Shown: piece by piece, positions 1 through 17,123 of the stretch
How the letters are laid out: every line of letters starts with the position of its first letter
Numbering within the stretch: position 1 is the first letter of the stretch
Source of the DNA: Acidithiobacillus thiooxidans ATCC 19377
GTDB taxonomy: Bacteria > Pseudomonadota > Gammaproteobacteria > Acidithiobacillales > Acidithiobacillaceae
Reading direction: 5' to 3'
Length of the DNA stretch: 64,000 nucleotides
Assembly (NCBI RefSeq): GCF_009662475.1
Contig: NZ_CP045571.1
Span: 256,501-320,500, forward strand
Program-made: the position numbers and the translations under genes
Notes under the pieces: model-generated
Seen by the model: only the letters and a program-made list of their open reading frames with translations
Database searches by the model: none
Told to the model about the DNA's origin: nothing

Positions 1-12
1 CGATCTCTGCTG

Positions 13-933
13 ATGTTTGCACGAGACCAGGCGTCAATATCTTCAGATCAGCAAGGTTGGGCACGCTCTCCAGAACGTGGCAGCATGACTATGTTACGGC
101 TCATCACCTGGATTTCCCTGAAGTTGGGTCGTCGCATGGCTCGCCTTATCTTGTATTTGATCGCCGGTTACTTTGTGTTGTTTGCACCAAAAGCCAGGCG
201 GTCATCGCGAGCCTATCTCACTCGGGTATTCGGCCGACCGGCACATATTTGGCAAGTTTATCGACATTTTTTTTCTTTTGCAGCGACAATCCATGATCGG
301 ATTTATTTGCTCAATGATCGTTTTGACTTTTTTGATATATCTTTACACCAACCAGAGGCCGTTGATACAGCTGTTGCGACAGGACGAGGAGTATTGCTGC
401 TCGGCGCACATCTCGGTAGTTTCGAGGTATTAAGAGGCATTGGCCGACAACATATTGATCCCCGTGTAATTATGGTGATGTATGAAAAAAATGCGGAGCG
501 TATTAATGCCATTCTTGCAGCGGTAAACCCGAATATTGAACAAAATGTTATATCTCCAGGCCGTGTAGATTCGATGATTTGCGTGCAAAAAGAACTGGAA
601 AATGGTGCCTTGGTTGGGTTGCTTGGAGATCGCTCTTTTGGTAAGGAGAAAATGCAACCAATTCCTTTTCTGGGTAAATCTGCTTTATGGTCCAATGGTC
701 CCTTACGAATAGCGGCAATATTGCGCAGGCCGGTATTCTTCATGACCGGATTATATACTGGACCGGGGAAATATGAAGTTTTTATAGAGCCATTGGCTGA
801 TTTCACTGAGGTCGAAAAAGAAGGAAAAGAAGCGGCACTACAACAAGCATTAACAAACTATGTAGGATTGCTGGACAAATACTGTCATATGGCCCCGTAT
901 AACTGGTTTAATTTTTTTGATTTTTGGCAATGA
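13..933 (+). CDS. LpxL/HtrB-like acyltransferase of an aryl-polyene-type cluster
   Basis: The protein is a member of the lysophospholipid/lauroyl acyltransferase family, which moves an acyl chain onto a lipid or glycolipid at the inner membrane. A single hydrophobic segment lies at about residues 44-57. The catalytic HX4E motif reads HLGSFE at 133-138, followed by a GDRSFG block near 204. The ERGS motif and basic run ahead of the membrane segment resemble acyltransferases of aryl-polyene and xanthomonadin clusters. The next genes, LolA-like and MMPL, support that setting. The reading frame is open to the left edge and no ribosome binding site is visible ahead of the first ATG, so the true start may lie outside the window. 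The gene is visibly A/T-rich compared with the DNA to the right. The family is confident; the acyl substrate is unknown. Confidence 0.8.
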   Translation: MFARDQASISSDQQGWARSPERGSMTMLRLITWISLKLGRRMARLILYLIAGYFVLFAPKARRSSRAYLTRVFGRPAHIWQVYRHFFSFAATIHDRIYLLNDRFDFFDISLHQPEAVDTAVATGRGVLLLGAHLGSFEVLRGIGRQHIDPRVIMVMYEKNAERINAILAAVNPNIEQNVISPGRVDSMICVQKELENGALVGLLGDRSFGKEKMQPIPFLGKSALWSNGPLRIAAILRRPVFFMTGLYTGPGKYEVFIEPLADFTEVEKEGKEAALQQALTNYVGLLDKYCHMAPYNWFNFFDFWQ

Positions 934-957
934 ATATAGGAGGTTAATCTGAAGAAG

Positions 958-1656
958 ATGGCTGAAGTATTTCGAGGCCTGCTGGATATACCGATCAAAA
1001 TGATCACAATATATCCTGAAAGCACCGGCCGCAGGTGTCAGGTTTGGTTGGGAGGTTTTTCATTCCCCTCGGCTACTCGGTATATTCGTTACAGTGCTTT
1101 TATTATTATGGCATTCATGGGGTTAAGTGTAATGCTGACGAGTGACGCGGATGCTGCAGAATGGAATGTTAATCAACTCATGCATTCTCTGGCACACGCT
1201 CAACCGGATCATGCTACATTCGTCGAAAAAAAATTTCTTAATATTCTGGAAAAACCCATAGAATCATATGGGAAAATGCAATTTATTGCTCCAGATGGAT
1301 TGGAGATGCACACCATTGAGCCAAAAAATGAGGTCATGCTTATTCACGGCGACATCCTAAGTATTGACCACCATGATATCCACTTACAAGATCATCCAGA
1401 ACTGCTTGCATTTGTTGATAGTATTCGTGGTGTATTAACTGGTAACCAGCAGATGCTCGAGCAATATTTTTATCTTTTTTTGAAGGGTGATGAAAAAAAC
1501 TGGACCTTGACGTTGCGACCCAAACAAAAAAAACTGGCCGGTCTGATTAGATATATTCAAGTTGATGGTAACAATAGTAGTATTACCAGCATTAATACTC
1601 TGAAAATGAATAATGATCGTTCGCTGATAACCATCATTTCGTCCGGTACCCCGTGA
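958..1656 (+). CDS. LolA-like periplasmic carrier protein of the aryl-polyene-type cluster
   Basis: This is a 232-residue LolA-fold protein. LolA relatives carry lipoproteins or other lipids through the periplasm, and dedicated copies sit beside MMPL exporters in aryl-polyene clusters. A hydrophobic segment at about 46-61 is followed by DADAAEW, consistent with signal peptidase cleavage near 66. About 40 residues precede it, which is long for a signal peptide, so the annotated start may be too early, although no better in-frame ATG with a clear ribosome binding site exists. AGGAGG lies 14 bases before the ATG, and an in-frame CTG three codons earlier is better spaced. The end overlaps the exporter start by four bases. 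Family placement rests on size, signal peptide and neighbours as much as on sequence. Confidence 0.72.
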   Translation: MAEVFRGLLDIPIKMITIYPESTGRRCQVWLGGFSFPSATRYIRYSAFIIMAFMGLSVMLTSDADAAEWNVNQLMHSLAHAQPDHATFVEKKFLNILEKPIESYGKMQFIAPDGLEMHTIEPKNEVMLIHGDILSIDHHDIHLQDHPELLAFVDSIRGVLTGNQQMLEQYFYLFLKGDEKNWTLTLRPKQKKLAGLIRYIQVDGNNSSITSINTLKMNNDRSLITIISSGTP

Positions 1657-4007
1657 GAAAAATTCACGGTTTGGTCGTCGTGATCTGGCTGACTGTTTTG
1701 TTTGTCGGTGGTGCATTGATTTTGACGGCCAACTTTTCAGCCAGTCTTTCGGAATTTATGCCGCAGTCTCCAACCGCACAGCAAGCGGTTCTGAATGAAC
1801 AATTACTGCATGGTATTTTGTCACGCCAAATCATGATTGAGATTAATGGCGGTGATGCTTCCACCCGTGCCAAGATTTCCATTGAGATTGTTAAGAAGTT
1901 GCAGCGAAATGCGGCATTTTTCTCGGTTAGCAATAACAGCAGCAATGATGATGCCAGTTTTTTTCATTATTTTTTCTCCCATCGCTATCTGCTGAGTCCT
2001 AGCGTCAACTCGCAACTTTTTACTGTGGCTGGTTTACATAAAGCTATAGAAAATTCCATTAATATGTTGGCTACACCGGGTGGGGAAATGGTCCAATCCC
2101 TGTTTCCGAGTGATCCAACTGGGGCCACAGTGCAACTGATTCAATCCCTGGGGCGTGTTGCAAGACCAATGACGCAAGATGGAGTCTGGTCGTCTCGTTC
2201 GGGTCAGAGTGCTTTGATATTGGCTCAGACCCGGGCCTCTGGTTCTGACATGGCTGCTCAGCAGATTGCGGTTAATAGCATCAGATTGGCCTTTGCCAAA
2301 ACCAAAAATGAGGCGGGTTTGTTAGCCACAGGCACTTACTTAATGATGACAGGGGTTGGAGTTATTTCGGTGGACTCCCGTGATACTATCGTTCATGCCG
2401 CTGAGATGATGTCCATCATCAGCATGACGCTTATCACGATATTGCTCTTATTTGTTTACCGTTCTGTGTTTGTGTTGGTTTTAGGCCTCGTACCGGTATT
2501 TTCTGGTGTCATTGTCGGGATTACTGCGGTGGCTCTTGGCTTTTCCGTTGTTTATGATATCACTATGGGGTTCGGTACCGCGTTAATTGGTGAAGCAGTA
2601 GATTATTCTATTTATTTTTTCGTGCAGTCTGGTCAGTCAGAAAAAAATACAGAAGAATGGATCCGTAACTACTGGCCGACAATAAAATTGGGAGTATTCA
2701 CTTCAGTCATAGGTTTTTCCAGCCTGCTGTTTTCTAATTTACCTGGGTTAGCGCAAATTGGTCTATATGCAATTACAGGTCTCCTTACTGCGGCGACTGT
2801 TACCAGGCTGATCTTGCCAATCCTGAAGCCTCGTCATCTTAAGGTGCGGGATTTAAGCGCTATTGGCGAATATCTGCTGCGTTGGAAAAAGATTCTTTTT
2901 ATCCTGAGGCCCGGTATTGTCTTAATGTTGATAGTTGCTTGTGTCACCCTTGTTAGCCATCATGATAATATCTGGGATTATAAACCATCTGCTCTGAGTC
3001 CGGTTCCGGCGGCTGAGCAAAAACTTTATGCACGACTGCGCGCTGATTTGGGGGTATCTGGAAGCGGTTATCTGGTTGTTGTTTCAGGGCCCACGATTAA
3101 CGCCACGTTGTTGACAGCTGAAAAGGCTGGAATTACCTTACAGGGCCTGGTTGAAAATGATGTGATTGCAAGTTATGAAAGCCCTGTTAGATATCTCCCA
3201 AGCATTACCATGCAACAAGAGCGGCAAGCAGCAATTCCACCGCAAACGCAATTGGCAAAGCGATTGCATGAGGCTTTAACAGGCCTGCCGGTAAAAGCCT
3301 CCCTTTTTACACCCTTTATCCACGAGGCTGAAATACAACGTACATGTGCCCCCTTAAAACTTGCCGATCTGCATGGCACCAGCATTGGTATGGTGGTTAA
3401 CAGCATGCTTGTTCACCATGGGAAAGGATGGCAGGCCATTTTGCCGATCAAGGCACCTGCATCAGGGATTGTGAATACCCAGCGCATACGTAGCAGCCTT
3501 GCCCGGCAACATATCAAAGACGCCATGCTCATTGATTTATCCGACTCATCAGATCAATTGTATAAAGGTTATCTCTCCAATGTGATTAAACTGTCATTAG
3601 CCGGTGTGGTTCTTATCGTGGTGCTTTTATTGTTTTTATTACGTTCCCCAGTTCGGGTTTTTAGAATAATGTTACCGCTAACAGCCGCTGTACTGAGCGT
3701 ATCTGCAGGATTTGTCTTGTGCGGATATGAACTTAATATCATGAATCTAATTGGGCTGATGCTGATTGTTGCCATCGGGTCAAACTATGCAATATTTTTT
3801 GATCAGGCCGATAGGCATGGTCAGGGGGGAATTGCTTCGTGTACACTCGCCTCTCTGGTTATTGCCAATACTGCTACCATTATGGGATTCGCGCCACTCG
3901 CTTTTTCCGGGGTGCCTGTTCTTCAGGCCATAGGTGCCACTGTTGCTCCAGGAGTTTTTCTAGCCCTGTTGTTCTCTGCAAGCTTTTCCCAACGTCAAGC
4001 ATCCTGA
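1653..4007 (+). CDS. MMPL/RND-family exporter
   Basis: This is a 784-residue inner-membrane transporter of the MMPL branch of the RND superfamily. The architecture is duplicated: a first membrane helix, a large periplasmic loop, a five-to-six helix bundle at about 250-390, a second loop at about 430-640, and a final bundle to the C-terminus. The stretch near 300-325 with GFGTALIGEAVDYSIYF, and the matching MLIVAIGSNYAIFFDQ in the second half, are the family's TM4-like motifs. It starts with GTG inside the stop of the LolA-like gene, which implies translational coupling. Exporters of this kind in pigment clusters are thought to move the acyl or polyene lipid out of the inner membrane with the LolA partner; that role is inferred here from context. 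Confidence 0.85.
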   Translation: MRKIHGLVVVIWLTVLFVGGALILTANFSASLSEFMPQSPTAQQAVLNEQLLHGILSRQIMIEINGGDASTRAKISIEIVKKLQRNAAFFSVSNNSSNDDASFFHYFFSHRYLLSPSVNSQLFTVAGLHKAIENSINMLATPGGEMVQSLFPSDPTGATVQLIQSLGRVARPMTQDGVWSSRSGQSALILAQTRASGSDMAAQQIAVNSIRLAFAKTKNEAGLLATGTYLMMTGVGVISVDSRDTIVHAAEMMSIISMTLITILLLFVYRSVFVLVLGLVPVFSGVIVGITAVALGFSVVYDITMGFGTALIGEAVDYSIYFFVQSGQSEKNTEEWIRNYWPTIKLGVFTSVIGFSSLLFSNLPGLAQIGLYAITGLLTAATVTRLILPILKPRHLKVRDLSAIGEYLLRWKKILFILRPGIVLMLIVACVTLVSHHDNIWDYKPSALSPVPAAEQKLYARLRADLGVSGSGYLVVVSGPTINATLLTAEKAGITLQGLVENDVIASYESPVRYLPSITMQQERQAAIPPQTQLAKRLHEALTGLPVKASLFTPFIHEAEIQRTCAPLKLADLHGTSIGMVVNSMLVHHGKGWQAILPIKAPASGIVNTQRIRSSLARQHIKDAMLIDLSDSSDQLYKGYLSNVIKLSLAGVVLIVVLLLFLLRSPVRVFRIMLPLTAAVLSVSAGFVLCGYELNIMNLIGLMLIVAIGSNYAIFFDQADRHGQGGIASCTLASLVIANTATIMGFAPLAFSGVPVLQAIGATVAPGVFLALLFSASFSQRQAS

Positions 4008-4126
4008 TTCCAAGATCATTGTGGATGATCCTGTTCTGGGCCGTGCTGATTTTTGAGGAGGAGTCATCACGCGCGCGCTTGTGTCATTTTTAACTGGTAC
4101 TACTTGCCTTGAAGGATTTGTTATGT
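4008..4126 (+). other. Spacer with a strong unused Shine-Dalgarno sequence
   Basis: This 119-base spacer holds GAGGAGGAG at 4055-4063, as good a ribosome binding site as any in the cluster, yet no ATG, GTG or TTG follows at a usable distance. The only reading possible after it is a 17-codon frame from a GTG at 4081. The chorismatase has its own AAGGA ten bases before its ATG. The site may be a scar of a deleted gene between exporter and chorismatase, or chance. Confidence 0.4.
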
Positions 4127-5152
4127 ATGAATGAGCCGCTGCAACTTGAATGGATCAGTACTGAAATTTTGCTGCGTCAACCCAAAGAATATCTGTCTCA
4201 TGTGCTGGGTATTGTGCATTATGGTCCAAATCAAGTTCACACGGGACTCAGAGAGCTCGAAATCCCCGTTTCTTTAGTCAACGTCCCGGTTTTGGGTCAT
4301 GGCGATGGTATTTGTGAACTCTGGAGGTCACAGCAAAAAGTGCGGGCGGGGAGTCACGGGCCAATTTCCTGGAGAGCCAATGAATCCTTACTGTTTCTGA
4401 CGGTGGAAATCGGTAATGCTGAACAATGTTTGCATGACGCTACACGAGATGCCTACTGCGCATTGCTTGCCGAAATAACTGCTCTTGGCTATCCGCATCT
4501 GCTGAGAGTCTGGAACCACATTGGTGATATAAACGATGATTCGACTGGCCTTGAACGTTACCGACAGTTCAATATAGGTAGACTAGAAGCTTTTATGGCC
4601 GGCAACTGGTCAGTAATTGATGTTGCACCACCAGCGGCCAGCGCGCTGGGCGCGCAGCGCAATACCCCATTGGCACTGTTTGCACTGGCTTCGCATCATG
4701 CGCCACTGGCCATTGAAAATCCTCGTCAAATTCGAGCTTATGATTATCCTCAAAATTATGGACCCTGCCCGCCTACCTTTTCTCGTGCCAGCCTGATTGA
4801 TCTGGATGGACCGACCCTGTTTATATCGGGCACAGCAAGTATTGTGGGTCACCAAAGTATGCACCCCGATAATTGTCGTGAACAAATCCGCGAGACCATG
4901 CGAAACATAGAGGCACTGCTCCATGAGGTCAGCTGTTCCCATGGCGTTGACTGGGAACTTGCCAACTTGCAATTCAAGGCTTATTTGCGGAATGGTGCTG
5001 ATCTTTGGATGTTTCGCGAGGAAATGGATCAGATAGTCGGTAAAGAGGTAAATTGCCTGATTATCCAGGCGGACATATGCCGACGCGACCTCTTGGTTGA
5101 AATAGAAGCAGTTGCTTTGCCTTGCACAAGTACGATTGAACATCACCACTGA
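4127..5152 (+). CDS. Chorismatase (XanB2/FkbO/Hyg5 family), probable hydroxybenzoate synthase
   Basis: This 341-residue enzyme belongs to the chorismatases, which split pyruvate from chorismate to give 3-hydroxybenzoate, 4-hydroxybenzoate or a dihydroxycyclohexadiene acid. Family hallmarks are visible: YDYPQNYGPCPPTFSRAS at 205-222, SGTASIVGH at 234-242 in the RidA-like C-terminal half, and QADICRRDLLVEIEAV at 314-329, which carries the glutamates expected at the active site. Length matches XanB2 and Hyg5 (about 330-345). I chose the ATG at 4127, preceded by AAGGA at 4112, over an upstream in-frame TTG. Next to acyltransferase, LolA-like and MMPL genes, the likely role is the aryl starter unit of an aryl-polyene pigment, as XanB2 does for xanthomonadin; it could also feed ubiquinone. 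The exact product cannot be told from sequence. Confidence 0.85.
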   Translation: MNEPLQLEWISTEILLRQPKEYLSHVLGIVHYGPNQVHTGLRELEIPVSLVNVPVLGHGDGICELWRSQQKVRAGSHGPISWRANESLLFLTVEIGNAEQCLHDATRDAYCALLAEITALGYPHLLRVWNHIGDINDDSTGLERYRQFNIGRLEAFMAGNWSVIDVAPPAASALGAQRNTPLALFALASHHAPLAIENPRQIRAYDYPQNYGPCPPTFSRASLIDLDGPTLFISGTASIVGHQSMHPDNCREQIRETMRNIEALLHEVSCSHGVDWELANLQFKAYLRNGADLWMFREEMDQIVGKEVNCLIIQADICRRDLLVEIEAVALPCTSTIEHHH

Positions 5153-5162
5153 TGATGACAGC

Positions 5163-5190
5163 TTGAGGATTCTGAAAATTCGGCTATATA
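5163..5190 (+). promoter_or_regulatory. Weak candidate promoter ahead of sspB
   Basis: TTGAGG and TATATA are separated by 16 bases in the gap between the chorismatase and sspB. A 6-bp inverted repeat, TCTGGA/TCCAGA (5205-5210 and 5220-5225, 9-base loop), lies between the -10 and the gene. Both hexamers deviate from consensus, so this is tentative. Confidence 0.3.
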
Positions 5191-5249
5191 TCCCTAGTGA
5201 CTCATCTGGAAGATAGTCATCCAGACCCGGAATTAATGGAGAATGCAAC

Positions 5250-5669
5250 TTGTTGCCTGAAAGTGCCAAGCCTTATTTGCTGAATAGTGTTTATCAATGG
5301 TGTGTTGACCAGGGTCATACGCCATATATTCTGGTGGTGGTTGCCTATCCGGGGGTGGCGGTTCCCAGCGGTTATGAAAAAGACGGGCGCATGATACTGG
5401 ATATTTCCCCGAATGCTTGCCACAACCTCAACATGGCTGATGGTTGGATCAGCTTTAATGCGCGCTTTGGTGGTGTGGCGCGAACGGTGGATGTACCTAT
5501 GGCGGCCGTGGTGGCTATTTATGCAGCAGAAACCCAGGAGGGTATGGGTTTTGCGGAGCCAGAGCTGCCTGAGGCCCCGCCTCCAGGATCCGAACCTGAA
5601 GATCGTGTAGCGCGTGCTGCTGAGGTTCAGGAAAAACCAGAGAGACCTTCATTGCGGGTCATCAAATGA
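5250..5669 (+). CDS. sspB: ClpXP protease specificity-enhancing factor SspB
   Basis: SspB is the adaptor that tethers ssrA-tagged and other substrates to ClpXP. The first 110 residues form the substrate-binding domain: PYLLNSVYQWCVDQ near 8-21, HTPYILV, the NLNM...WISFNARFGG block at about 59-75, and VPMAAVVAIYA. A flexible acidic and proline-rich linker follows, and the chain ends RPSLRVIK, which matches the short C-terminal tail known to bind ClpX. The start is TTG (a second TTG follows directly), with GGAGA seven bases ahead. It overlaps the next gene by four bases. In enterobacteria sspB follows sspA; here sspA lies 28 kb away on the other strand. Confidence 0.93.
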   Translation: MLPESAKPYLLNSVYQWCVDQGHTPYILVVVAYPGVAVPSGYEKDGRMILDISPNACHNLNMADGWISFNARFGGVARTVDVPMAAVVAIYAAETQEGMGFAEPELPEAPPPGSEPEDRVARAAEVQEKPERPSLRVIK

Positions 5670-6346: not shown

Positions 6347-6570
6347 TTTTGCAGTTTTTTTCGCAAGGTATTGCGATTGATACCCAGCCATTGGGCAGCC
6401 GTACCCCGTTGTCCGTCACATTTCTTCAGGGTGTGTTCGAGCAGGGCACATTCCACCTGTTCAATAACCTGAGTATGCAGGTTTTTTGGCGCTTCGCCCT
6501 GCAGATCGTCCAGATAACGATCCACGATCATGACCACGCAGTCACTCAGAGTCATTGATTCTGTTGCCAT
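6328..6570 (-). CDS. fis: Fis-family nucleoid-associated DNA-binding protein
   Basis: Fis is a dimeric bending protein that organises the nucleoid and regulates promoters. This copy has 80 residues, shorter than the 98 of E. coli. The C-terminal helix-turn-helix at about 56-76 (GTAAQWLGINRNTLRKKL) is clear. The reduced N-terminus leaves little room for the beta-hairpin used in DNA inversion, as in other short Fis proteins. It is the last gene of the aroQ-accB-accC-prmA-DUF3426-fis operon and overlaps the convergent transglycosylase tail to tail. NtrC-type regulators share this HTH, but the protein has no other domain. Confidence 0.88.
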   Translation of the reverse strand: MATESMTLSDCVVMIVDRYLDDLQGEAPKNLHTQVIEQVECALLEHTLKKCDGQRGTAAQWLGINRNTLRKKLQNYGLDT

Positions 6571-6581
6571 GATCCTGCTCC

Positions 6582-7214
6582 TCAGGGTTGACTGAGCAGA
6601 GTGACCTGATAGCCTGCAGCGGCAATCAGTTTCGGACTCTTGATGGAGAACTGAACGGGTGTATGGGATAAAAATCCGGAGATGCTCTCTTCCGGCTTTG
6701 CCAGATATTCTTTAGGCGTGAATTGCAGATGGGCAATGGGTGCACCGTAAACATTACTCAGAGTGACCTGGATGACCGGGTATGCCTGCACGTGCCCCGC
6801 CAGATTCTCCATTTTTCCGGTAATTTCAGCCAAGTGATTATCCAGCGCTGTGACATGGCTATCGACAATGCGCATTTCCCTATTGGGTCCCGGCCAGGAA
6901 ATCTGTGTACCTAATGTGTTGGCACTCTGGATCATGGCACGGCGGATGGGCGCACTGTTGGCTGCATAACTATAGACGCCCGTTGACCAGAGGATTTGTC
7001 CAATCAGCGCCAAAATCAACAGGAAAATAATCAACAGGAGTAAATAACGGCCCAGACGTTGCCCCAGATGGGCGCCGGCTGCACTGGTTTCGTCGTCCGG
7101 GTTTACCTGGAAGACGTGCTGGCAGACGCCACATTTCACTTGATAGTGATGTTGTTGCAGGGCCTTTGCTTCCACGCTGAAAGTGGACTCGCAACGCGGG
7201 CAGGTTATTTCCAT
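6582..7214 (-). CDS. Zinc-ribbon, single-pass membrane protein (MJ0042 motif plus DUF3426)
   Basis: The N-terminal 35 residues form a zinc ribbon with two CXXC pairs (C5/C8 and C28/C31), matching the MJ0042 motif. One membrane helix lies at about 55-78 (YLLLLIIFLLILALIGQIL). The rest, about 85-205, is a DUF3426 domain predicted to sit outside the cytoplasm. The function is unknown; these proteins are regularly found between prmA and fis in beta- and gammaproteobacteria, and this copy fits that pattern. It is 210 residues, a usual length, and four bases separate its ATG from the prmA stop. Confidence 0.85.
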   Translation of the reverse strand: MEITCPRCESTFSVEAKALQQHHYQVKCGVCQHVFQVNPDDETSAAGAHLGQRLGRYLLLLIIFLLILALIGQILWSTGVYSYAANSAPIRRAMIQSANTLGTQISWPGPNREMRIVDSHVTALDNHLAEITGKMENLAGHVQAYPVIQVTLSNVYGAPIAHLQFTPKEYLAKPEESISGFLSHTPVQFSIKSPKLIAAAGYQVTLLSQP

Positions 7215-7217
7215 GGT

Positions 7218-8096
7218 TCAGTCTCCGGATTTTCGCTGGCCATACAGCAGGGACCAGTCTTCTTCATGTTGCGGGGCGGCTAAATTAAAATAGGGTGCGT
7301 AGGCATTTTGAATGCCGGTTTCCTGGCTGTGGAGAATGCCGGAGAGGGCAATCCACCCTCCTGGCCTGGTCAATGCAGCCAGCGTCGGGGCAAGACTGAG
7401 CAGGGGCCCAGCCAGAATGTTGGCAACCAGAATATCCGCCAAGGGCAGTGGTGTTGCTTCCGGCAGGGACAGTCGCAGTCGCTCCGCGACACCATTGCGT
7501 TGGGCGTTGCTCATGGCCACTCGCAGCGCAATAGAGTCGGTATCGACTCCATAAGCTTCTTTCGCACCCAAAAGCAAAGCAGCAATAGCGAGAATACCTG
7601 AGCCGCAGCCATAATCCACAATACACTCGCCACCTTGAATGTGGCTTTCCAGAAAATGCAGGCAACGCGAAGTAGTGGGATGCGCCCCGGTACCAAAGGC
7701 CTGGCCGGGGTCGAGGTGCAGTTCGTAGCGGGTATCTTGTGGTGCTTGATCCCAGCTGGGAACCACCCAGAGTTTTCCAAACTGACGGGCCGGAAATTGT
7801 GTCTGGGTACTGGATACCCAATCCTGATCTTCCAAAGCATGGACAGAGGCTCCGTAGTTTTGCCAACCGGCCATGTTTACTAAGGCATGAATACTGGCTT
7901 CGCTATGGTTTTCGGCAGCAAAAAGCGCCTGACACTGACTTTTCTGCCAGAGCTCTCCTTCAATAAAAAGTGCTTCGCTGGTATCCAGCTCCAAAAAAGT
8001 GATGGCTTCAGCACCTGCCTCCTGCAATTGTGTTTCCACCTTTGCGGCAGAGTCGGCCGGAACCTGAAGGCTCAGTTGCCACCACGCAATGTTCAT
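7218..8096 (-). CDS. prmA: Ribosomal protein L11 methyltransferase
   Basis: PrmA trimethylates ribosomal protein L11 using S-adenosylmethionine. At 292 residues it is the normal length. The N-terminal substrate-recognition domain covers about 1-100. The Rossmann methyltransferase domain shows [15 protein letters not shown], then [15 protein letters not shown] (SAM motif I, near 160-175), and VANILAGPL, the NIL motif near the active site. It overlaps the end of accC by four bases (ATGA type), which implies translational coupling. Confidence 0.95.
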
Positions 8097-9439
8097 AGCG
8101 CGAGCAGTGCCTCCAGATAATGGATGTTCACTTCACCGGCTGCATATTGGGCTTCTTCAAGAATGCGGCGATGCAGAAGAATGTTGGTCTGGATGCCTTC
8201 AATGCTGGTTTCCCGCAGAGCGCTGCGCATGCGCATCTGGGCTTCTTCCCGATCATTTCCATAGGCGATGATTTTGCCGATCATGGAATCATAGAAAGGC
8301 GGTACCCGATAACCGGCATATATATGGCTGTCTACCCTAATTCCTGGACCGCCGGGTGGGTGCCATGCCGTGATTTGCCCGGGTGAGGGCATGAATTTTT
8401 CAGGATCTTCAGCGTTGATGCGGCATTCAATGGCATGTCCCTGCAAGCGGACATCTTCCTGCCGGAAAGGGAGAGGCTTGCCTGCCGCAATCAGAATCTG
8501 CGCTTTGACAATGTCCACACCAGTAATCATTTCAGTCACTGGATGCTCTACCTGAACGCGGGTGTTCATCTCGATAAAGTAAAAGGTTTTACTGCCGGGA
8601 TCGTAAAGAAACTCAATGGTTCCGGCACCGCGATAGCCCATGTCTGAACAGGCTTTGACCACTGCTGCACCAATTTCGGCGCGTTGTTTATCGGTAATGC
8701 CTGGAGCCGGTGCTTCCTCGACGACCTTTTGGTGACGCCGTTGTACGGAGCAGTCCCGTTCGCCGAGGTGTACGCAATGGCCGTGCGCATCGCAGAGCAC
8801 CTGGAATTCAATATGGCGGGGGGTTTCCAGAAATTTTTCCATGTACAGGGTCGGATTGCCAAAAGCCTTGCCCGCTTCTGCCCGGGTCAGGTTGGCGGCG
8901 TTGATCAAATGTGCCTCGGTGTGGACAACGCGCATGCCGCGTCCGCCACCGCCACCGGCAGCCTTGAGAATGACCGGATAACCGATTTCCTTCGCCAGTT
9001 TTTTGAGGGCTTCATTGTCATCGGGTAGGGGACCATCAGACCCGGGAACGCAGGGTACGCCGGCCTTGATCATGGCGGCCTTGGCCGCGATTTTGTCTCC
9101 CATCAGGCGAATGGTTTCTGCACGGGGACCAATAAATGCAAAACCGCTGTTTTCCACCCTTTCTGCGAAATCGGCATTTTCCGATAAAAATCCGTAGCCG
9201 GGATGAATGGCTTCGGCGTCGGTAACTTCTGCGGCAGCAATGACCGCCGGGACATTCAAATAGCTTTGATCACTGGGAGCGGGGCCGATACAGACTGATT
9301 CATCGGCCAGCTTGACGTGCATCAGGTCACGGTCGGGTTCGGAATGCACGGCCACCGTGCGGATACCCAGCTCACGACAGGCACGCTGAATGCGCAGGGC
9401 AATTTCGCCCCGGTTGGCGATGAGGATTTTCTCAAACAT
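8093..9439 (-). CDS. accC: Biotin carboxylase subunit of acetyl-CoA carboxylase
   Basis: AccC carboxylates the biotin on AccB with ATP and bicarbonate, the first half-reaction of malonyl-CoA synthesis. It is 448 residues long. It begins [19 protein letters not shown]. The ATP-grasp glycine loop is [10 protein letters not shown] near 165; [19 protein letters not shown] and [14 protein letters not shown] are conserved substrate and catalytic segments. I chose the ATG at 9439 because it is the standard N-terminus and has GAGGA just ahead; an in-frame upstream ATG adds twelve unrelated residues. It lies one base after accB. Confidence 0.97.
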
Positions 9440-9440
9440 A

Positions 9441-9908
9441 TCAATCCTCTGGTGCAATAATAAAGAGTGGTTCACCGTATTCTACGGGCTGGCCGTTACT
9501 GGCCAGCACCTTGATGATTTTGCCGGAGACATCCGCCTCAATTTCATTCAGCAATTTCATGGCTTCGATAATGCAAAGTGTCTGACCAGCCTTGACGGTG
9601 CTGCCTTCTTCAACAAAAGGCGCAGCTTCCGGTGAAGCAGCCCGATAAAAGGTGCCGACCATGGGGGACTTGATCATGTAGCCCTGGGGGGCGGTTTCAG
9701 GTGCTGCAGTGGCTTCAGGAGGCCGAGTTACTTCTGCAGTCGGTGTTGGCAGCGGGGCTGGCTGAGTGTGATAGGTCACATTTTGCGGGGCGACGGGGGC
9801 TGCATGTCGGGTAATACGCACCTTACTTTCACCTTCCACAACTTCAATTTCGTCAATAGCGCTTTTTTCAAGTAATTCGGCAAGGCGACGAATGAATTGG
9901 ATATCCAT
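9441..9908 (-). CDS. accB: Biotin carboxyl carrier protein of acetyl-CoA carboxylase
   Basis: AccB (155 residues) carries the biotin between AccC and the carboxyltransferase. The N-terminus ([22 protein letters not shown]) is typical, followed by an alanine- and proline-rich hinge at about 45-80. The C-terminal biotinyl domain holds the biotinylation motif [15 protein letters not shown], where K is the modified lysine. A longer open frame exists upstream but overlaps aroQ and has no family similarity. With the bioFHCD operon in the same window, both the enzyme and part of its cofactor pathway are present. Confidence 0.96.
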
Positions 9909-9927
9909 ACTTTTCCTTATTATGCGT

Positions 9928-10386
9928 TTAGTCAGGGCGTGAAAAACGCCGGTAAATGGCTTCCAGCGCGAGGAAGTAGCCATCAGCACCCAATCCGGCG
10001 ATGACCCCTTGGGCCATGTCGGAAAAGTAGGAATACTGACGGAAGGGTTCCCGCGCATGAATGTTGGACAAATGTACCTCAATGAACGGAATCGCCACGG
10101 CACTCAGGGCATCCCGCAGGGCCACGCTGGTGTGGGTAAACGCAGCAGGATTGATGATGATGTTGGTGACACCCTGCTTGGGTGCAAGCTGCACGGCATC
10201 TATCAATTGATGCTCGGCATTGCTTTGCAAGCTGCTCAAGGCCCAACCCCAGGCATTGGCCATGGCTACCAGTTTGGCGTCTATGTCGGCCAGGGTACTG
10301 TGGCCGTAGTGTGCCGGTTCACGCTGACCCAGAAGGTTCAGGTTCGGTCCGTGCAGTACCAATATGTGAGGATTAGATACAGCCAT
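9928..10386 (-). CDS. aroQ: Type II 3-dehydroquinate dehydratase
   Basis: AroQ dehydrates 3-dehydroquinate to 3-dehydroshikimate in the shikimate pathway, which supplies the chorismate used by the chorismatase above. It is 152 residues, the standard size of the dodecameric type II enzyme. [18 protein letters not shown] near 11-28 contains the active-site arginine and tyrosine. [16 protein letters not shown] (about 79-94) and [14 protein letters not shown] (about 103-116) carry the catalytic histidine and substrate-binding residues. It heads the aroQ-accB-accC operon, a conserved arrangement. Confidence 0.96.
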
Positions 10387-10504
10387 GGCTTCCGCGTAAC
10401 ATCAAGAATAAACTGAAGTCTGCCGCAAATGCGCGCATAAATCTAGGTCGAAGCACTACATCAGCGCCTCATGATTTTTCGCAGGCATCGCCCCACGCGT
10501 TGAT

Positions 10505-10532
10505 TTGACGTAGAATACACCCAATATATAGT
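10505..10532 (+). promoter_or_regulatory. Candidate sigma70 promoter for the desaturase-like gene
   Basis: TTGACG and TATAGT, each five of six consensus bases, are spaced by 16 bases in the 234-base gap between the divergent aroQ and the desaturase-like gene. The predicted transcript would have a leader of about 80 bases. No operator was recognised and the rest of the gap shows nothing distinctive. Confidence 0.55.
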
Positions 10533-10620
10533 TCATAGGGGTTGCTGGCAGTATGGTGCAGCCCAGACAGGTCGCTGCGACCTATTGTGATTGACGACGC
10601 CGGAGAGAGGTGGCTTTGCC

Positions 10621-11478
10621 ATGTTATACCCTGAATTATTTAAATCCCTGGAGGCCGCGCGTTGGAATATGGCGACAGATATTCCCTGGGATCAGTTTGA
10701 TCGGAGTCTGGTGAGTGAAGAGCAGCTGCGCACCATTAAGATGAATGCTGTGACCGAGTGGTCGGCGCTGCCGGCGACGGAAATGTTTTTGCGTGATAAT
10801 CGCGATGATTCGGATTTTTCGGCATTCATGTCCATCTGGTTTTATGAAGAACAGAAGCACGCGCTGGTCTTGATGGAATACCTGCGCCGCTTTGCCCCCG
10901 AATATCTCCCGACTGAGGAAGAGCTGCACAAGGTGCGATTTGAATTTGATCCTGCCCCTGCCATGGAAACCCTGATGCTCCATTTTTGTGGGGAAATTCG
11001 TTTGACGCATTGGTACAAATGCGCGGCGCAGTGGCACAGCGAGCCGGTCATTCGTTCTATTTACGAAGTGCTGTCTAAAGATGAAGCGCGGCACGCGGGC
11101 ATTTATCTGAAATATATGCGCCGGGCCATTGAGCGCCTGGGAGACTCGGCGCGTCTGGCTTTCGCTAAAATTGGCGTATTGATGGCCAATACCAAGACGG
11201 CAAAGGCTTTGCATCCAACCAACTTGCATGTGAATAAAGAGATGTACCCTGAGGATAGTGTCCAGAGTCACCTGCCGGATCCGGGCTGGCTGGAGCAATG
11301 GCTGGATACCCAGATTCATTTTGATGCCATCTGGGAAGGCAAGGTTATCAATGGCATTTTGCGCAATCTTTCCACGCTGCTTGAAATTCCCATCCAGAGT
11401 GCCAAGGATCTGAGCCGTTATCGTAAGGCCATGTCCAGTGCAGACCGCGAAGCATCCGGGCATATGGCCGCTGGCTGA
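10621..11478 (+). CDS. Ferritin-like di-iron protein related to acyl-ACP desaturases
   Basis: This is a 285-residue all-helical protein with the two EXXH-type halves of a di-iron centre: E46 (TEW), E77 and H80 in EEQKH, E125 in GEIR, and E155 and H158 in DEARH. The spacing matches soluble class II fatty-acid desaturases, which introduce double bonds into acyl chains bound to carrier protein. The sequence is shorter than plant stearoyl-ACP desaturase. The ATG at 10621 is taken over an upstream TTG, with GGAGAG about 13 bases ahead. Actual desaturase activity is inferred; the family also includes ferritin-like oxidases of unknown substrate. Expression probably comes from its own promoter. Confidence 0.78.
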   Translation: MLYPELFKSLEAARWNMATDIPWDQFDRSLVSEEQLRTIKMNAVTEWSALPATEMFLRDNRDDSDFSAFMSIWFYEEQKHALVLMEYLRRFAPEYLPTEEELHKVRFEFDPAPAMETLMLHFCGEIRLTHWYKCAAQWHSEPVIRSIYEVLSKDEARHAGIYLKYMRRAIERLGDSARLAFAKIGVLMANTKTAKALHPTNLHVNKEMYPEDSVQSHLPDPGWLEQWLDTQIHFDAIWEGKVINGILRNLSTLLEIPIQSAKDLSRYRKAMSSADREASGHMAAG

Positions 11479-11496
11479 CATCAGGTACGTTTAAAT

Positions 11497-11922
11497 ATGT
11501 CTGATGCATCCTGGCGGAGTATGAGCCTGGAGGAAAGGTTGAAATGGGCACTGAGTCCTGAACTGCCCGGTCACTATCGTCCCTTCCTGCTGAGGGAACA
11601 GTGGGTTCAAACGCGCTGTTATTTTGCCAGACGCGTGGATTTGCTGCCCGGAGAAGTAGCGGCGTTGGCTCGGGATGACGACTACGTGATCCGCTTGTGC
11701 ATTGCGAAAAGACCGGATTTATCAGCGGAACAGGTGGCGGAGTTTTGTACGGATCGGGATCCCAATGTGCGCTATGCCATTGCCCGAAATCCCCTGCTGA
11801 CAGACATTCAGCGCGCCGGGTTGCTTGCCGATGAGGATGAACTGGTAAGAACAGCCGCAGCCAAGGGGCCACGGCCTAGTCAGGAGCGCTGTCGTCCAGG
11901 TCAGGCGCCGTTATTGCGCTGA
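11497..11922 (+). CDS. Small LRV/HEAT-like repeat protein
   Basis: The 141-residue protein is made of about four 24-26-residue units, at roughly 36-56, 57-82, 83-108 and 109-130. Each has a (D)-x-x-x-VR-x-x-(I/A)A-x-x-P core: YVIRLCIAKRP, NVRYAIARNP and LVRTAAAKGP are clear examples. This is the leucine-rich-variant (LRV) type of alpha-helical repeat, thought to serve protein contacts. The cysteine cluster of the Azotobacter LRV protein is not present. It follows the desaturase-like gene on the same strand and may be co-transcribed. Its stop lies 16 bases from the convergent end of ftsZ. The function is unknown. Confidence 0.6.
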   Translation: MSDASWRSMSLEERLKWALSPELPGHYRPFLLREQWVQTRCYFARRVDLLPGEVAALARDDDYVIRLCIAKRPDLSAEQVAEFCTDRDPNVRYAIARNPLLTDIQRAGLLADEDELVRTAAAKGPRPSQERCRPGQAPLLR

Positions 11923-11938
11923 CCCGGCGGTACCGACC

Positions 11939-13108
11939 TTAGTCAGCCTGGCGGCGCAGAAAGGCAGGTATATCCAAATCGGCAAAATCCTGAACCCCGG
12001 AGCTACGGTTAGAGGTTGAAGCTGGTGCCGGACGTTCGTTATGACGCATACCCACGGGTATGTCGAGATTGCGCCAGTCGGAAGGGGTGCTCGGATTGCC
12101 GGCACTGGCAGCCCCACGACCCCGGATGTTCTCCACGGCCAAACGTACAGGTTCGCGTTGCAAACCCGTAGCCACTACAGTGACGCGTAACTCCCCATCC
12201 AGGTCAGGATCCAGCACTGTACCGACCTTCACATTGGCGTCATCTGCTGCATAACCGCGAATCAGCTCGCCGACTTCCTGGAATTCGCCCAGGGTCAGGT
12301 CCATACCTGCCGTGATGTTGACGAGAATACCGCGTGCCCCGGAGAGGTTGATGTCGTCCAGTAACGGGCTAGATGCGGCGCGGGTCGCTGCATCTCTGGC
12401 GCGGTTTTCACCCTTGCCACTGGCGGCACCCATCATCGCCAGACCCATGCCTGACATGACCGTACGCACATCGGCAAAATCCAGGTTCATCAGGCCGGGA
12501 CGGGTGACCAGCTCGGAGATACCCTGCACCGCGCCCAACAAAATGTTGTCCGCTGCCTGATAGGCATCCTTGAGACTGATGGATGTGCCCAGAACGGCCA
12601 GCAGCTTCTCATTGGGAATAATGACCAGAGAATCGACATGCTGGGAAAGTTCGTCGATACCGGAAAGTGCATGCTGCTGGCGTTTTTTGCCTTCAAAATT
12701 GAAGGGTTTGGTTACCACACCAACCGTCAGAATGCCCATATCCCGGGCAATGGCAGCAACAACAGGAGCAGCACCCGTACCGGTTCCGCCACCCATGCCG
12801 GTAGTGATGAATACCATATCCGCTTTTTCGAGGGCTGCACGAATATCATCGCGACCTTCTTCCGCTGCCTTGCGGCCGACTTCCGGATCAGCCCCGGCGC
12901 CCAGACCACGGGTAATCTGCGCACCCAGCTGAATGGTGCGGCTGGCCTGTGAGTGACGTAAAGCCTGGGCATCCGTATTGGCGGTGATGAATTCCACCCC
13001 TTCCAGACCCGCTCCGCACATGTTGTTGATGGCGTTACCACCACCACCGCCGACGCCGATGACCTTGATGACGGCGCCGTCCTGTTCGCATTCGTTCAAT
13101 TCATACAT
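11939..13108 (-). CDS. ftsZ: Cell division GTPase FtsZ
   Basis: FtsZ is the tubulin homologue that forms the division ring. It is 389 residues long. GVGGGGGNAINNM at about 18-30 and the tubulin signature GGGTGTGAAPVVA at about 106-118 bind GTP; NLDFADVRTVM is the T7/H8 region. A variable linker follows about residue 320. The C-terminal DLDIPAFLRRQAD is the conserved peptide that binds FtsA and ZipA. It is the last gene of the dcw cluster, 41 bases after ftsA, with AGGAG ahead of the ATG. Confidence 0.99.
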   Translation of the reverse strand: MYELNECEQDGAVIKVIGVGGGGGNAINNMCGAGLEGVEFITANTDAQALRHSQASRTIQLGAQITRGLGAGADPEVGRKAAEEGRDDIRAALEKADMVFITTGMGGGTGTGAAPVVAAIARDMGILTVGVVTKPFNFEGKKRQQHALSGIDELSQHVDSLVIIPNEKLLAVLGTSISLKDAYQAADNILLGAVQGISELVTRPGLMNLDFADVRTVMSGMGLAMMGAASGKGENRARDAATRAASSPLLDDINLSGARGILVNITAGMDLTLGEFQEVGELIRGYAADDANVKVGTVLDPDLDGELRVTVVATGLQREPVRLAVENIRGRGAASAGNPSTPSDWRNLDIPVGMRHNERPAPASTSNRSSGVQDFADLDIPAFLRRQAD

Positions 13109-13149
13109 AATATTTCTCCTGATTCGTTAAGTATGAGTGTTGGTGGGGA

Positions 13150-14439
13150 TCAGCCGAAGCTGGTCTGGACCCAGTTGCGCATTTTCCGGAAAACACCGCC
13201 AAAGCTGGTGTCCATGCCGGCATGTCCCTGGCCCTGATCTTCATAGGCCGCCCTGGGCTGGACGACAACGGCGGCTTCGCCTTGTCCGGCGGGTTGATTA
13301 TGTAATCCGTACATGACCAAGCCTACGCCCGTGGCATGTCCAGGTACCCGAACCACGTTTTCCATCCCCGGCAAATGCATGGGTTCACCGACGCGAACCG
13401 GCAGGTGAAGGATTTCTTCTGCCAGTTCGGCAATGCCTTCCAGACGGCTGGAACCGCCGGTAATGACGACGCCAGCGGCAATCAAATCTTCATAGCCGGT
13501 GCGTCTTAGTTCTGCCTGGATGAGTTCAAACAATTCCTTGATGCGGGGCTCAATGATGTCACCGAGAATGCGCCGGGAAATGGTGCGGGGCGGGCGGGTG
13601 CCGACGCTGGGGACCGAGATTTCATCATCCTGCTGAATGAGATCACCCAGAGCGCAACCGTATAATTTCTTGATTTGCTCAGCTTCGACGGGTGGGGTGC
13701 GAAGACCCAGGGCAATGTCATTGGTCACCTGATCTCCGGCGATGGGAATGACGGCCGTATGGCGGACGGCCCCATCGCGGAAAATGGCGATATCGGTAGT
13801 CCCGCCACCAATATCCACCAGACAAACACCCAGCTCTTTCTCGTCCTGGGTAAGCACGGCGTCTGCCGAGGCCAGCTGTTCGAGGACCAGATCCTGGACT
13901 TGCAGTCCGCAACGTTCCACACATTTGGCGATATTCTGGGCGGCACTGACAGCACCCGTAACAATATGTACCCGGGCTTCCAGGCGTACTCCCGACATGC
14001 CGACCGGTTCGCGAACCCCTTCCTGGCTGTCAATCATGAATTCCTGGGGCAGAATATGAATGACGTTCTGATCCTGCGGGATCACGATGGCGCGCGCCGC
14101 GTCCATGACCCGACCTACATCATCATTGCTGACTTCCTTGTTTTTGATGGCGACAATACCGTGGCTGTTGTAGCCGCGAATATGTCCGCCGGCGATGCCG
14201 ACTACCGCGCCATGAATCTGCACACCGGCCATGAGCTCGGCTTCCTGCACGGCACGGGTGATAGCCTGAACCGTGGATTCAATATCCACGACAACGCCTT
14301 TTTTCAAGCCCCGGGAGGGGTGCTGACCAACACCGATGATTTCTGCTTCACGACCACCTTTGGACTGCGCAACAATACAGGCCACTTTGGAAGTACCAAT
14401 ATCCAGGCCGACGATGAGTTCCTGATGTCCACGTTTCAT
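13150..14439 (-). CDS. ftsA: Cell division protein FtsA
   Basis: FtsA is an actin-like ATPase that ties FtsZ filaments to the membrane. It is 429 residues long. LIVGLDIGTSKVACIV (8-23) is the phosphate-1 loop, VDIGGGTTDIAIF (about 207-219) phosphate-2, and VVITGGSSRLEGI (about 330) the adenosine motif. The C-terminal FRKMRNWVQTSFG is the amphipathic membrane-targeting helix. It lies between ftsQ and ftsZ, 30 bases after the ftsQ stop. Confidence 0.98.
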   Translation of the reverse strand: MKRGHQELIVGLDIGTSKVACIVAQSKGGREAEIIGVGQHPSRGLKKGVVVDIESTVQAITRAVQEAELMAGVQIHGAVVGIAGGHIRGYNSHGIVAIKNKEVSNDDVGRVMDAARAIVIPQDQNVIHILPQEFMIDSQEGVREPVGMSGVRLEARVHIVTGAVSAAQNIAKCVERCGLQVQDLVLEQLASADAVLTQDEKELGVCLVDIGGGTTDIAIFRDGAVRHTAVIPIAGDQVTNDIALGLRTPPVEAEQIKKLYGCALGDLIQQDDEISVPSVGTRPPRTISRRILGDIIEPRIKELFELIQAELRRTGYEDLIAAGVVITGGSSRLEGIAELAEEILHLPVRVGEPMHLPGMENVVRVPGHATGVGLVMYGLHNQPAGQGEAAVVVQPRAAYEDQGQGHAGMDTSFGGVFRKMRNWVQTSFG

Positions 14440-14469
14440 TTGCTTTCTCTCCTTCGGATCCGGGATCCG

Positions 14470-15324
14470 TTACTGACTGTTGACGGTGGTCGCTGAGGGC
14501 ATGGCGACCGCAAAACCATTGGTATAGCGAAGATCCATTGTGGCTCCGGCTACCAGGTATTCCTTGACCTGGGGGGCAATGGCCACCCAGCGTTTTAAAG
14601 CGGGTATCACGTCCTCGCTGCCCAGCAGCAGGCGAACCTGATTATTGAGAATGCAGCGCCATCCACCCCTTTGGTCTTCCTGAAGGGAAACGACCTTCAG
14701 GCCCAGTGGGGCAACAATGGAATTAAATTTCGCCAGTTGCGCGAGGAGTTGGCTGCCACTATCGGCGGGTCCGGCTAGATTGGGGAGTCCATTGGGTACT
14801 TGTGCTGGGGGAACGCTGAACACTTTTCCCTGGGCATCGACCATTTGCCCGGCACCACCCAGCCAGCGGGCGACCGGCGTGTAGGGTTTGATATTGACCG
14901 TCAGGCGGTCGGGCCAGACCCGCCGCACCTCGGCATCGGCGACCCAGGGCAGGGCATCCAGAGAATGGCGGATTTGTTCGGGGTTCGCCCACAGAAAGCC
15001 ACGCGCCGCATAGGGCTTGAGAACCGTGTTGATTTCGGCCAGAGGAATTTTGGGAGAACTGCCGGTAATGGTCAGGGTGTTGATGGGCATCAGGGAGGGT
15101 TGCTGGAGCCATTGCCATCCGGACCATCCTCCCCAGGCGAGAATGCTGATACTCAGTCCACCCGCAAGGAACTTTCCATAAAGCTTCCAGGGCAGGGGCT
15201 TATGGGCTTTGGCAGCGGCCTTGACGGGTGCCGTCCGGGGAGCGGCTTTGGGTTTTTCCTTCAGGGTGGCTGCTGGCCGTTGTGGCTGTTGTCCGTGGCG
15301 ATAATCACGCATGACACTAACCAT
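14470..15324 (-). CDS. ftsQ: Cell division protein FtsQ
   Basis: FtsQ is a bitopic divisome protein that nucleates the FtsQLB complex. It is 284 residues long. A basic, proline/alanine-rich cytoplasmic tail of about 50 residues precedes one membrane helix at about 52-71. A POTRA domain follows (INTLTITG...LPWVADAEVRRVWPDRLTVNI, about 81-155), then the FtsQ beta domain. The ATG at 15324 overlaps ddl by eight bases; a second ATG at 15312 would leave the genes four bases apart, and either is possible. Confidence 0.95.
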   Translation of the reverse strand: MVSVMRDYRHGQQPQRPAATLKEKPKAAPRTAPVKAAAKAHKPLPWKLYGKFLAGGLSISILAWGGWSGWQWLQQPSLMPINTLTITGSSPKIPLAEINTVLKPYAARGFLWANPEQIRHSLDALPWVADAEVRRVWPDRLTVNIKPYTPVARWLGGAGQMVDAQGKVFSVPPAQVPNGLPNLAGPADSGSQLLAQLAKFNSIVAPLGLKVVSLQEDQRGGWRCILNNQVRLLLGSEDVIPALKRWVAIAPQVKEYLVAGATMDLRYTNGFAVAMPSATTVNSQ

Positions 15325-16243
15325 GATTCACTCTCCTCTGCGCCGTACGCAGTATGGTCTTGCATAATTCGGGGAAATCCATGCCCACAGCTTTGGCGGC
15401 CATGGGTACGAGGCTGTGGCTGGTCATGCCGGGAACGCTGTTGATTTCCAGAAGATGTATTTTCCCGGATGCACTGATCATGAAATCGACCCTGCCCCAA
15501 TCTCTGCCACCCAGTTCGGCAAATGCCCGGAGAGCCAGGGCCTGCAGTTCGGCATCTTTGCCGGCACCCAGTCCAGAAGGCAGCAGATAACGGGTATCCT
15601 CGGCAAGATATTTGGCATCGTAGTCATAAAAGGCGTGCGGGGTTTCAATGACAATGGGTGGAAGGGCTTTACCATCGACAATGCCGACCGTGGCTTCATG
15701 ACCAATGACAGCCGCTTCACAGAGAATTTCATCCTCGAGAGCAAAAGCATCCGTTATGGCTTTCTCCAGTTCTTCCGGCCCATTCACCCGGCTGACGCCG
15801 AGGCTGGAACCACCATGATTGGGTTTGATATAAAGCGGCCAGGTAAAGTTTGCCGCGAGATCAGGTCGCGGATCGTGCTGCCGCATCAGCATTCCTTCCG
15901 TTACGGGGAGGCCGGCGGCTTTCCAGATCTGCTTGGAACGCCACTTGTCCATGGCCAGTGCCGAACTCAAGACGCCGCTCCCGGTGTAGGGAATGGCAAG
16001 GGTTTCAAGGACGGCCTGGAGGAGGCCATCCTCGCCAATGGCGCCATGGCAGACATTGAAGGCGATACGGACGCGTTCATCCTGCAACTGCTGTTGCAGC
16101 CGCGCTGGTTCAATATCAATGCCCAGTGCTTCCATGCCACTGCTGCGCAGGGCATCAAGGACTGCCGCAGCACTCAGCAATGACACCTCGCGTTCGCCCG
16201 AGGGGCCACCGTATAGGACGGCTATGCGGATGGATTCAGCCAT
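15317..16243 (-). CDS. ddl: D-alanine--D-alanine ligase
   Basis: Ddl is an ATP-grasp enzyme that makes the D-Ala-D-Ala dipeptide for the peptidoglycan stem. It is 308 residues, like DdlB. VLYGGPSGEREVSLLS lies at the N-terminus; YIKPNHGGSSLGVSRV is the ATP-binding segment near 138; LLEINSVPGMTSHSLVP near 268 holds metal ligands and the active-site loop. It overlaps the end of murB by eight bases. Its place between murB and ftsQ matches the classical dcw order. Confidence 0.97.
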   Translation of the reverse strand: MAESIRIAVLYGGPSGEREVSLLSAAAVLDALRSSGMEALGIDIEPARLQQQLQDERVRIAFNVCHGAIGEDGLLQAVLETLAIPYTGSGVLSSALAMDKWRSKQIWKAAGLPVTEGMLMRQHDPRPDLAANFTWPLYIKPNHGGSSLGVSRVNGPEELEKAITDAFALEDEILCEAAVIGHEATVGIVDGKALPPIVIETPHAFYDYDAKYLAEDTRYLLPSGLGAGKDAELQALALRAFAELGGRDWGRVDFMISASGKIHLLEINSVPGMTSHSLVPMAAKAVGMDFPELCKTILRTAQRRVNHG

Positions 16244-17123
16244 GCTTCACCTCCCCCAGAATGCACATTTCGACTTGCAGCCGGATGCCGAACTGTTGCT
16301 GGACCGCTGATTGTACTTCCTCCACCAAGGCCTCAATGTCAGCCGCCCGGGCATCGCCCCGGTTGATGATGAAATTGGCATGCTGGCTGCTGACTTCGGC
16401 CTGCCCACGGGCTTTTCCCTTTAACCCGGCCGCTTCAATCAAGCGGGCCGCGTGGTCCCCCGCCGGGTTACGGAACACCGAACCACAACTGGGCCATTCG
16501 AGAGGCTGAGTGGCGGCGCGTTTCTCCTGCCAGGCGCGCAAGCGTTGCATGACTGCCGTACTTTCTTCGGGGATCAGGCGGAGTCCGGCCGCAACAAAGC
16601 AGGCGTCACCATGGCCGCGAACCTCCCGATAGCCAATCTGGAAATCCTGAGGAGCAAGACGCTGGATTTCACCATGGGGATGAATGACTTCCACCCATTC
16701 CACCAGACTCCAGGTATCGCCTCCGTGGGCGCCGGCATTCATGCTCAGGCAGCCTCCCAATGTGCCGGGAATACCCGCCAGAAACTCTGCGCCGGCAAGC
16801 CCTGCCTTGGCCGCAAAATGGGCAATTTTTACCGCACCTGCACCGGCGCCGACCCGCAGCAGATCATTTTCTGCCAAAACGATCTGATCCAGGGTGTTGG
16901 CGAGGCAGATGGTGGTCCCGCGCAGTCCGGCATCGCGCACCAACACATTACTGCCCAGCCCTATCCAGGTGAGCGGCGGAACCGCAAAATGTCTTAAAAA
17001 TCCTTGCAGATCTTCCAGGGTGCCGGGTAGATAGAAGCGATCAGCCGGTCCTCCAACCCGCCAGCTGGTATGGCGTTGCATGGATTCTCCCAGGCGCAGG
17101 CGGCCACCAATGACCGGCATCAT
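16236..17123 (-). CDS. murB: UDP-N-acetylenolpyruvoylglucosamine reductase (type I/II MurB)
   Basis: MurB reduces UDP-GlcNAc-enolpyruvate to UDP-MurNAc with FAD and NADPH. It is 295 residues from the ATG chosen, which overlaps the murC stop; the next codon is also ATG. FAD-binding GLGSNVLVRDAGLRG (about 57-71) and GTLGGCLSMNAGAHGG (about 121-136) are clear. CGSVFRNP contains the serine proton donor, and the glutamate near the C-terminus (VEMCILGE) completes the catalytic set. The longer open frame upstream lies wholly within murC. Confidence 0.96.
   Translation of the reverse strand: MMPVIGGRLRLGESMQRHTSWRVGGPADRFYLPGTLEDLQGFLRHFAVPPLTWIGLGSNVLVRDAGLRGTTICLANTLDQIVLAENDLLRVGAGAGAVKIAHFAAKAGLAGAEFLAGIPGTLGGCLSMNAGAHGGDTWSLVEWVEVIHPHGEIQRLAPQDFQIGYREVRGHGDACFVAAGLRLIPEESTAVMQRLRAWQEKRAATQPLEWPSCGSVFRNPAGDHAARLIEAAGLKGKARGQAEVSSQHANFIINRGDARAADIEALVEEVQSAVQQQFGIRLQVEMCILGEVKHG

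Follow-up and report, generated by a model that had tools for sequence, protein, structure and literature searches.

The window analysed here is a stretch of 64,000 nucleotides from a complete 3.4-Mb Acidithiobacillus genome (G000:C1:256501-320500), and its first position corresponds to L002 18001. The features at its left edge were as follows.

1-12, plus strand: last bases of an ApeI-type dehydratase gene, with the gene end at L002 18013
13-933, plus strand: LpxL/HtrB-type acyltransferase (PF03279, E 9e-12; 30% over 290 aa to the C-terminal half of E. coli CFT073 C_RS05605, E 1.7e-37)
958-1656, plus strand: LolA-like periplasmic carrier (PF19574, LolA_3, E 2.8e-12; match to CFT073 LolA, E 1.6e-4)
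1653-4007, plus strand: MMPL/RND-type exporter of 784 aa with a GTG start (PF03176, E 8.2e-16; 23% over 762 aa to CFT073 MMPL, E 6.7e-16)
4127-5152, plus strand: chorismatase of the FkbO/Hyg5/XanB2 family, 341 aa (PF21168; TIGR04444, E 2.5e-65; solved FkbO and Hyg5, E ~1e-39)
5160-5249, no strand: right junction (88% over 91 bp to sequence upstream of sspB in G003, a sister that carries traT)

The acyltransferase carries the HX4E motif, and its length of 306 aa is the same in four relatives. The best NCBIfam match of the LolA-like protein was LolA2_flexi (E 1e-13), which lies under the cut-off of that model. The LolA and MMPL genes share four bases, and the start of the acyltransferase gene overlaps the stop of the upstream dehydratase gene. 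The chorismatase reading frame was listed from a TTG at 4109; because a sister species has a stop within the first codons of this frame, ATG 4127 is the likelier start. Housekeeping genes extend rightward from 5250, namely sspB, a lytic transglycosylase gene and a small Fis-type gene, and further to the right lie two genes that we take, from their sequence, to be prmA and accC. A second sspB, 82% identical to the copy at 5250, was observed on the minus strand at G000:C1:1526517-1526933 (L093 8518-8934), with PcfJ, AAA_24 ATPase, YkuD, FimV_N, EAL and N-methyl pilin-like genes as neighbours; this second locus is possibly a mobile element with its own ClpXP adaptor.

We then followed the source genome to the left of the window, where the remaining genes of the cluster occupy G000:C1:244814-256500 (L002 6314-18000). 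The following genes were found, in L002 coordinates.

6389-6700, minus strand: ACP
7193-7693: BamE-like protein
7745-8509: polysaccharide deacetylase
8590-9912: FAD halogenase/monooxygenase-like protein
10004-10804: PlsC-type acyltransferase
10801-11568: GT2
11648-12385, minus strand: ketoreductase (KR)
12382-12867, minus strand: ApeP-like dehydratase
12858-13673, minus strand: half-length CLF of 271 aa (PF13723), adjoining the KS
13683-14879, minus strand: ketosynthase (KS) with SACSSS (NF006618/PRK09185, E 5.7e-161)
15515-16315: ApeG-like membrane protein
16333-17706: AMP-ligase

The results showed that the whole cluster is a 16.8-kb block (16,846 bp) between fbp and sspB, with zapD, coaE and pil genes beyond fbp on the left. 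The earlier note, made from the letters of the window, had named an LpxL-like acyltransferase, a LolA-like carrier, an MMPL exporter and a chorismatase in a row, had read them as the export and lipid-attachment end of an aryl-polyene cluster, and had expected the window to cut off the rest. The row was recovered, all four genes lying on the plus strand within 1-5152. The reading as an export end was borne out by the counterparts in the CFT073 APE cluster and by the KS, ACP and dehydratase genes to the left, and base 1 does fall inside the end of the dehydratase gene. The note would have given up its reading if ketosynthase, carrier-protein and dehydratase genes were missing within 20 kb to the left; the KS, CLF, ACP, two dehydratases, KR and AMP-ligase all lie within 12 kb.

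Active-site motifs were found in the KS, ACP, KR, both dehydratases, the ligase, the acyltransferases and the halogenase-like enzyme (WxWxIP in the last). For the CLF, no residue was matched to Q166, a glutamine reported as essential in Lysobacter; the single Gln near that region varies among relatives. A gap of 635 bp between the divergent KS and ApeG-like genes (L002 14880-15514) holds no clear gene and is of similar length in G010; an Rfam search of the cluster, this gap included, returned no RNA family, and the matches from promoter and terminator scans were not above chance. The Na+/H+ exchanger gene that lies between GT2 and KR in congeners is absent from the cluster, nor did the rest of the genome yield a homologue. 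The only other KS matches in the genome were a distant one (39%) and one inside an open frame of about 2450 aa (KS domain at G000:C1:2110615-2111463), which has counterparts in several other Acidithiobacillus genomes and is a second, unrelated polyketide synthase.

To classify the chorismatase, we compared its residues with those of characterised members. The protein has Gly240, Cys327 and Glu334 in Hyg5 numbering. The signature of CH-II (Hyg5, 3-HBA only) is Gly164, Gly231 and Cys318 in Nat-hyg5 (PMC7170507); the equivalents of Gly231 and Cys318 are kept here, whereas that of Gly164 (Gly173 in Hyg5 numbering) is Ala. This Ala is also found in nearly all aligned proteobacterial members, and the protein was not filed as CH-II. 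Nor does it fit CH-I, since positions 240 and 327 are Gly and Cys here and Ala and Ala in FkbO. By family profile and residues, it is a XanB2-family chorismatase, with a predicted role in supplying the hydroxybenzoate starter. The products of chorismatases are not accurately predictable from alignment alone (PMC3949708). The kept residues speak for a predicted formation of 3-HBA and against the FkbO reaction, and double products of the XanB2 type (3-HBA and 4-HBA) are likely.

The four window genes showed dN/dS of 0.17-0.24 between G000 and G010, with dS like that of the neighbouring housekeeping genes, indicating that they are real genes under purifying selection; across all cluster genes, dN/dS was 0.05-0.30, again purifying. 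Each of their four families is common when taken alone and is not specific to pigments, which would suit a general lipid-export operon with a chorismatase beside it by chance. We give this reading next to no credence, because the four genes continue directly from the ligase and dehydratase genes with ends that overlap or nearly do so, and the same four-gene set accompanies the KS block in related genomes. Window positions 1-5152 very probably make up the downstream part of a complete cluster of the xanthomonadin-type aryl-polyene kind, whose working we infer from its genes. The chorismatase might alternatively serve ubiquinone by way of 4-hydroxybenzoate, with a secondary role in the pigment, as XanB2 provides 4-HBA for ubiquinone in Xanthomonas (PMC5069965; PMC3949708). 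We searched for UbiC (PF04345, above cut-off) and found it at C1:691452-691913 in the source genome and in 17 of 17 Acidithiobacillus genomes, whether they bear the cluster or not; ubiquinone should therefore not depend on the chorismatase, and the chorismatase as sole source of 4-HBA was rejected. The cluster is present in 11 of the 17, and the cluster-type KS (at least 66% identity) and the chorismatase occur in exactly the same 11. A main role in ubiquinone is thus very unlikely, and the chorismatase looks dedicated to the pigment, unlike its Xanthomonas relative.

To trace the history of the locus, we compared the region between fbp and sspB among the genomes. In G001, G003, G004 and G008, these genes are separated by 1.14-1.15 kb, which hold a single TraT-family lipoprotein gene; TraT was identified in G003, and the gaps in the other three are similar in length and sequence. 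The match between the flanks of G003 and G000 ends at L002 6313 on the left and resumes at window position 5160 on the right, indicating that 16,846 bp of pigment genes replace traT, of which G000 showed no homologue. The cluster is thus a discrete block, for which sister species have traT as a clean alternative allele. For most flanking genes, dS places the traT-bearing G001 closer to G000 than the cluster-bearing G010, so that the cluster has either been lost from some species or been exchanged by recombination. In G002 and G013, the cluster lies at the same site in a different gene order, and in G026, from another genus of the family, half of it lies beside fbp. G009 and G011 carry it elsewhere, and a fragment of traT can still be recognised between fbp and sspB in G009. 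Two further arrangements were observed: in G005 the cluster is split, with the chorismatase, halogenase and deacetylase genes beside sspB and the remainder on another contig (L043, L044), and in G011 the pigment LpxL gene is interrupted by a transposase-like gene of 440 aa (L039 15942-18351), and through this split gene lipid attachment may be broken in that strain.

The position and relationships of the chorismatase gene set it apart from the rest of the cluster. In congeners, the gene lies between the halogenase-like and acyltransferase genes or adjoins the BamE-like gene at that place. This place is empty in G000 and G010 (92 bp in G000), and the chorismatase instead follows the MMPL gene. 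A. sulfurivorans RW2 has the same gene run and a chorismatase 93% identical to that of G000. For nine other cluster proteins, identity is 69-84% to the counterparts in G009, G011, G014 and G017, and 33-64% to those in G026 and G028, two comparison genomes from outside the congeners. The chorismatase, by comparison, is 40% identical to those of G009, G011, G014 and G017 and 49-56% identical to those of G026 and G028. In the chorismatase tree, the G000/G010 gene groups with G028 (96/84) and G026 (100/100), and forcing the congeners' chorismatases, that of G017 included, into one clade was rejected (p-AU 2e-5). The KS, KR, CLF, FAD and MMPL trees placed G000 and G010 with the congeners, and the MMPL tree set G026 and G028 apart with full support.

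Two further explanations of this history were weighed. The earlier note had taken the A/T richness of the stretch as consistent with a separate history. The richness itself stands (45.5% G+C in 1-5152 against 55.0% in the remaining window; 46.9% for the whole island against 54.8% around it), and together with traT at the site in the near relative G001, it would favour a recent gain of the cluster from outside the family. However, the G+C of the cluster lies 4-6.5 points under that of the host's own housekeeping genes in every host where both were measured, and it follows the host over a housekeeping range of 54% to 61%. Because the cluster tracks the G+C of each host, A/T richness alone fails to show a separate history. 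Low G+C as proof of recent transfer was accordingly rejected; it is a standing feature of the cluster and cannot serve for dating either. The cluster genes are also mostly 54-84% identical to those of congeners, they have flank-like dS between G000 and G010, and the placements at fbp in G013, G002 and G026 recur, all of which makes a recent gain of the whole cluster unlikely. As for the chorismatase, an ancestor may have had two, with the G000 lineage keeping the type that other congeners lost. A related chorismatase adjoins fbp in G026, and the type may be old at this locus; G007 does have two chorismatases, but both are of the congeners' types, and its assembly is 85% complete. Against this, both types occur together in no genome examined, and the G000/G010 gene nests among the g4 genes with G028 rather than beside them. 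Such differential loss keeps a real, if less than even, chance. We favour, as the putative history of the chorismatase, displacement by a gene acquired horizontally from some relative within the other genus.

The proposed working would run as follows. The chorismatase would convert chorismate to 3-hydroxybenzoate, and the AMP-ligase would load it onto the ACP of the cluster. The KS with the half-length CLF would extend the chain with malonyl units. Through the KR and two dehydratases, each added unit would become a double bond, and modification of the ring may fall to the FAD halogenase-like enzyme. The acyl- and glycosyltransferases would attach the polyene to lipid, and the MMPL exporter, the ApeG-like protein and LolA would deliver it to the outer membrane for an expected protection against light and oxidative damage. 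We infer a product of this kind, that is, a 3-hydroxybenzoate-primed polyene, possibly halogenated, in the outer membrane. The exchange of chorismatases may also have altered the product: through another hydroxybenzoate ratio or a better-working incoming enzyme, the G000/G010 pigment would have a head group different from that of congeners; we hold this idea unlikely, and if it is true, the cluster is a natural starter-unit swap.

These results predict that sulfur-oxidising chemolithoautotrophs that live at very low pH make a membrane pigment protecting against light and oxidants. Close species with either the cluster or traT at one site form a pair for measuring the benefit of the pigment, and the separate ubiquinone route through UbiC means that the chorismatase should be deletable without the respiratory side effect expected in Xanthomonas. 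In the open-access literature searched, we found no paper that joins Acidithiobacillus and arylpolyene; a listing in subscription papers or cluster databases, beyond that scope, is possible. The two open-access papers naming both Acidithiobacillus and xanthomonadin use each word a single time, and one of them, PMC5069965, treats ubiquinone; a study of acid-mine clusters (PMC9734747) makes no mention of polyenes. The kind of cluster is already known, being xanthomonadin-type; the one unexpected feature is the replaced chorismatase, a natural replacement of the starter enzyme within an otherwise conserved aryl-polyene cluster.

Finally, we compared the cluster with known systems. The gene list of the arcuflavin clusters of Azoarcus sp. 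BH72 corresponds nearly one to one (PMC3949708), with counterparts in the chorismatase arcB, halogenase arcA, deacetylase arcN, exporter arcP, lolA arcQ, acyltransferase arcR and AMP-ligase arcT; the acyltransferase at 13-933 corresponds both to arcR and to the acyltransferase half of the E. coli APE glycosyl/acyltransferase. In contrast to the two loci of Azoarcus, there is one locus here, and equivalents of arcM (methyltransferase), arcG (Na+/H+ antiporter) and arcW/X (regulators) were not seen (PMC3949708). Dialkylresorcinol genes, too, were not found in the block. In E. coli CFT073, counterparts are ApeO (KS), ApeC (CLF), ApeQ (KR), ApeP, ApeI, ApeE (ACP), ApeH (ligase) and ApeG (PMC8253772), together with the GT2/acyltransferase, LolA and MMPL proteins, with identities of 45% for KS, 47% for KR and 40% for GT2. 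The E. coli kind has three KS-type proteins (PMC8253772); here, by contrast, the block showed neither a third KS (ApeR) or second ACP nor any gene for a thioesterase, a methyltransferase or a DUF3261 protein, the starter would come from a chorismatase, and there is a halogenase-like gene. With no thioesterase or methyltransferase, the steps of release and ring methylation have no assigned gene in the block, and Lysobacter likewise has none assigned. With Xanthomonas and Lysobacter enzymogenes OH11, the cluster shares a single CSSS-type KS beside a half-length CLF (275 aa in Lysobacter, 271 here), and also an ACP, KR, two dehydratases, acyltransferase, GT2, LolA-like carrier, exporters and a XanB2-family gene (PMC3691225); an AMP-ligase completes the xanthomonadin-type set found here. 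The halogenase-like gene is also present in Xanthomonas but absent in Lysobacter. The gene order differs from both, UbiC is present as well in G000, and the type and place of the chorismatase differ even from congeners. Overall, with its one CSSS-type KS and half-length CLF, the cluster resembles the Lysobacter/Xanthomonas kind more than the E. coli kind.
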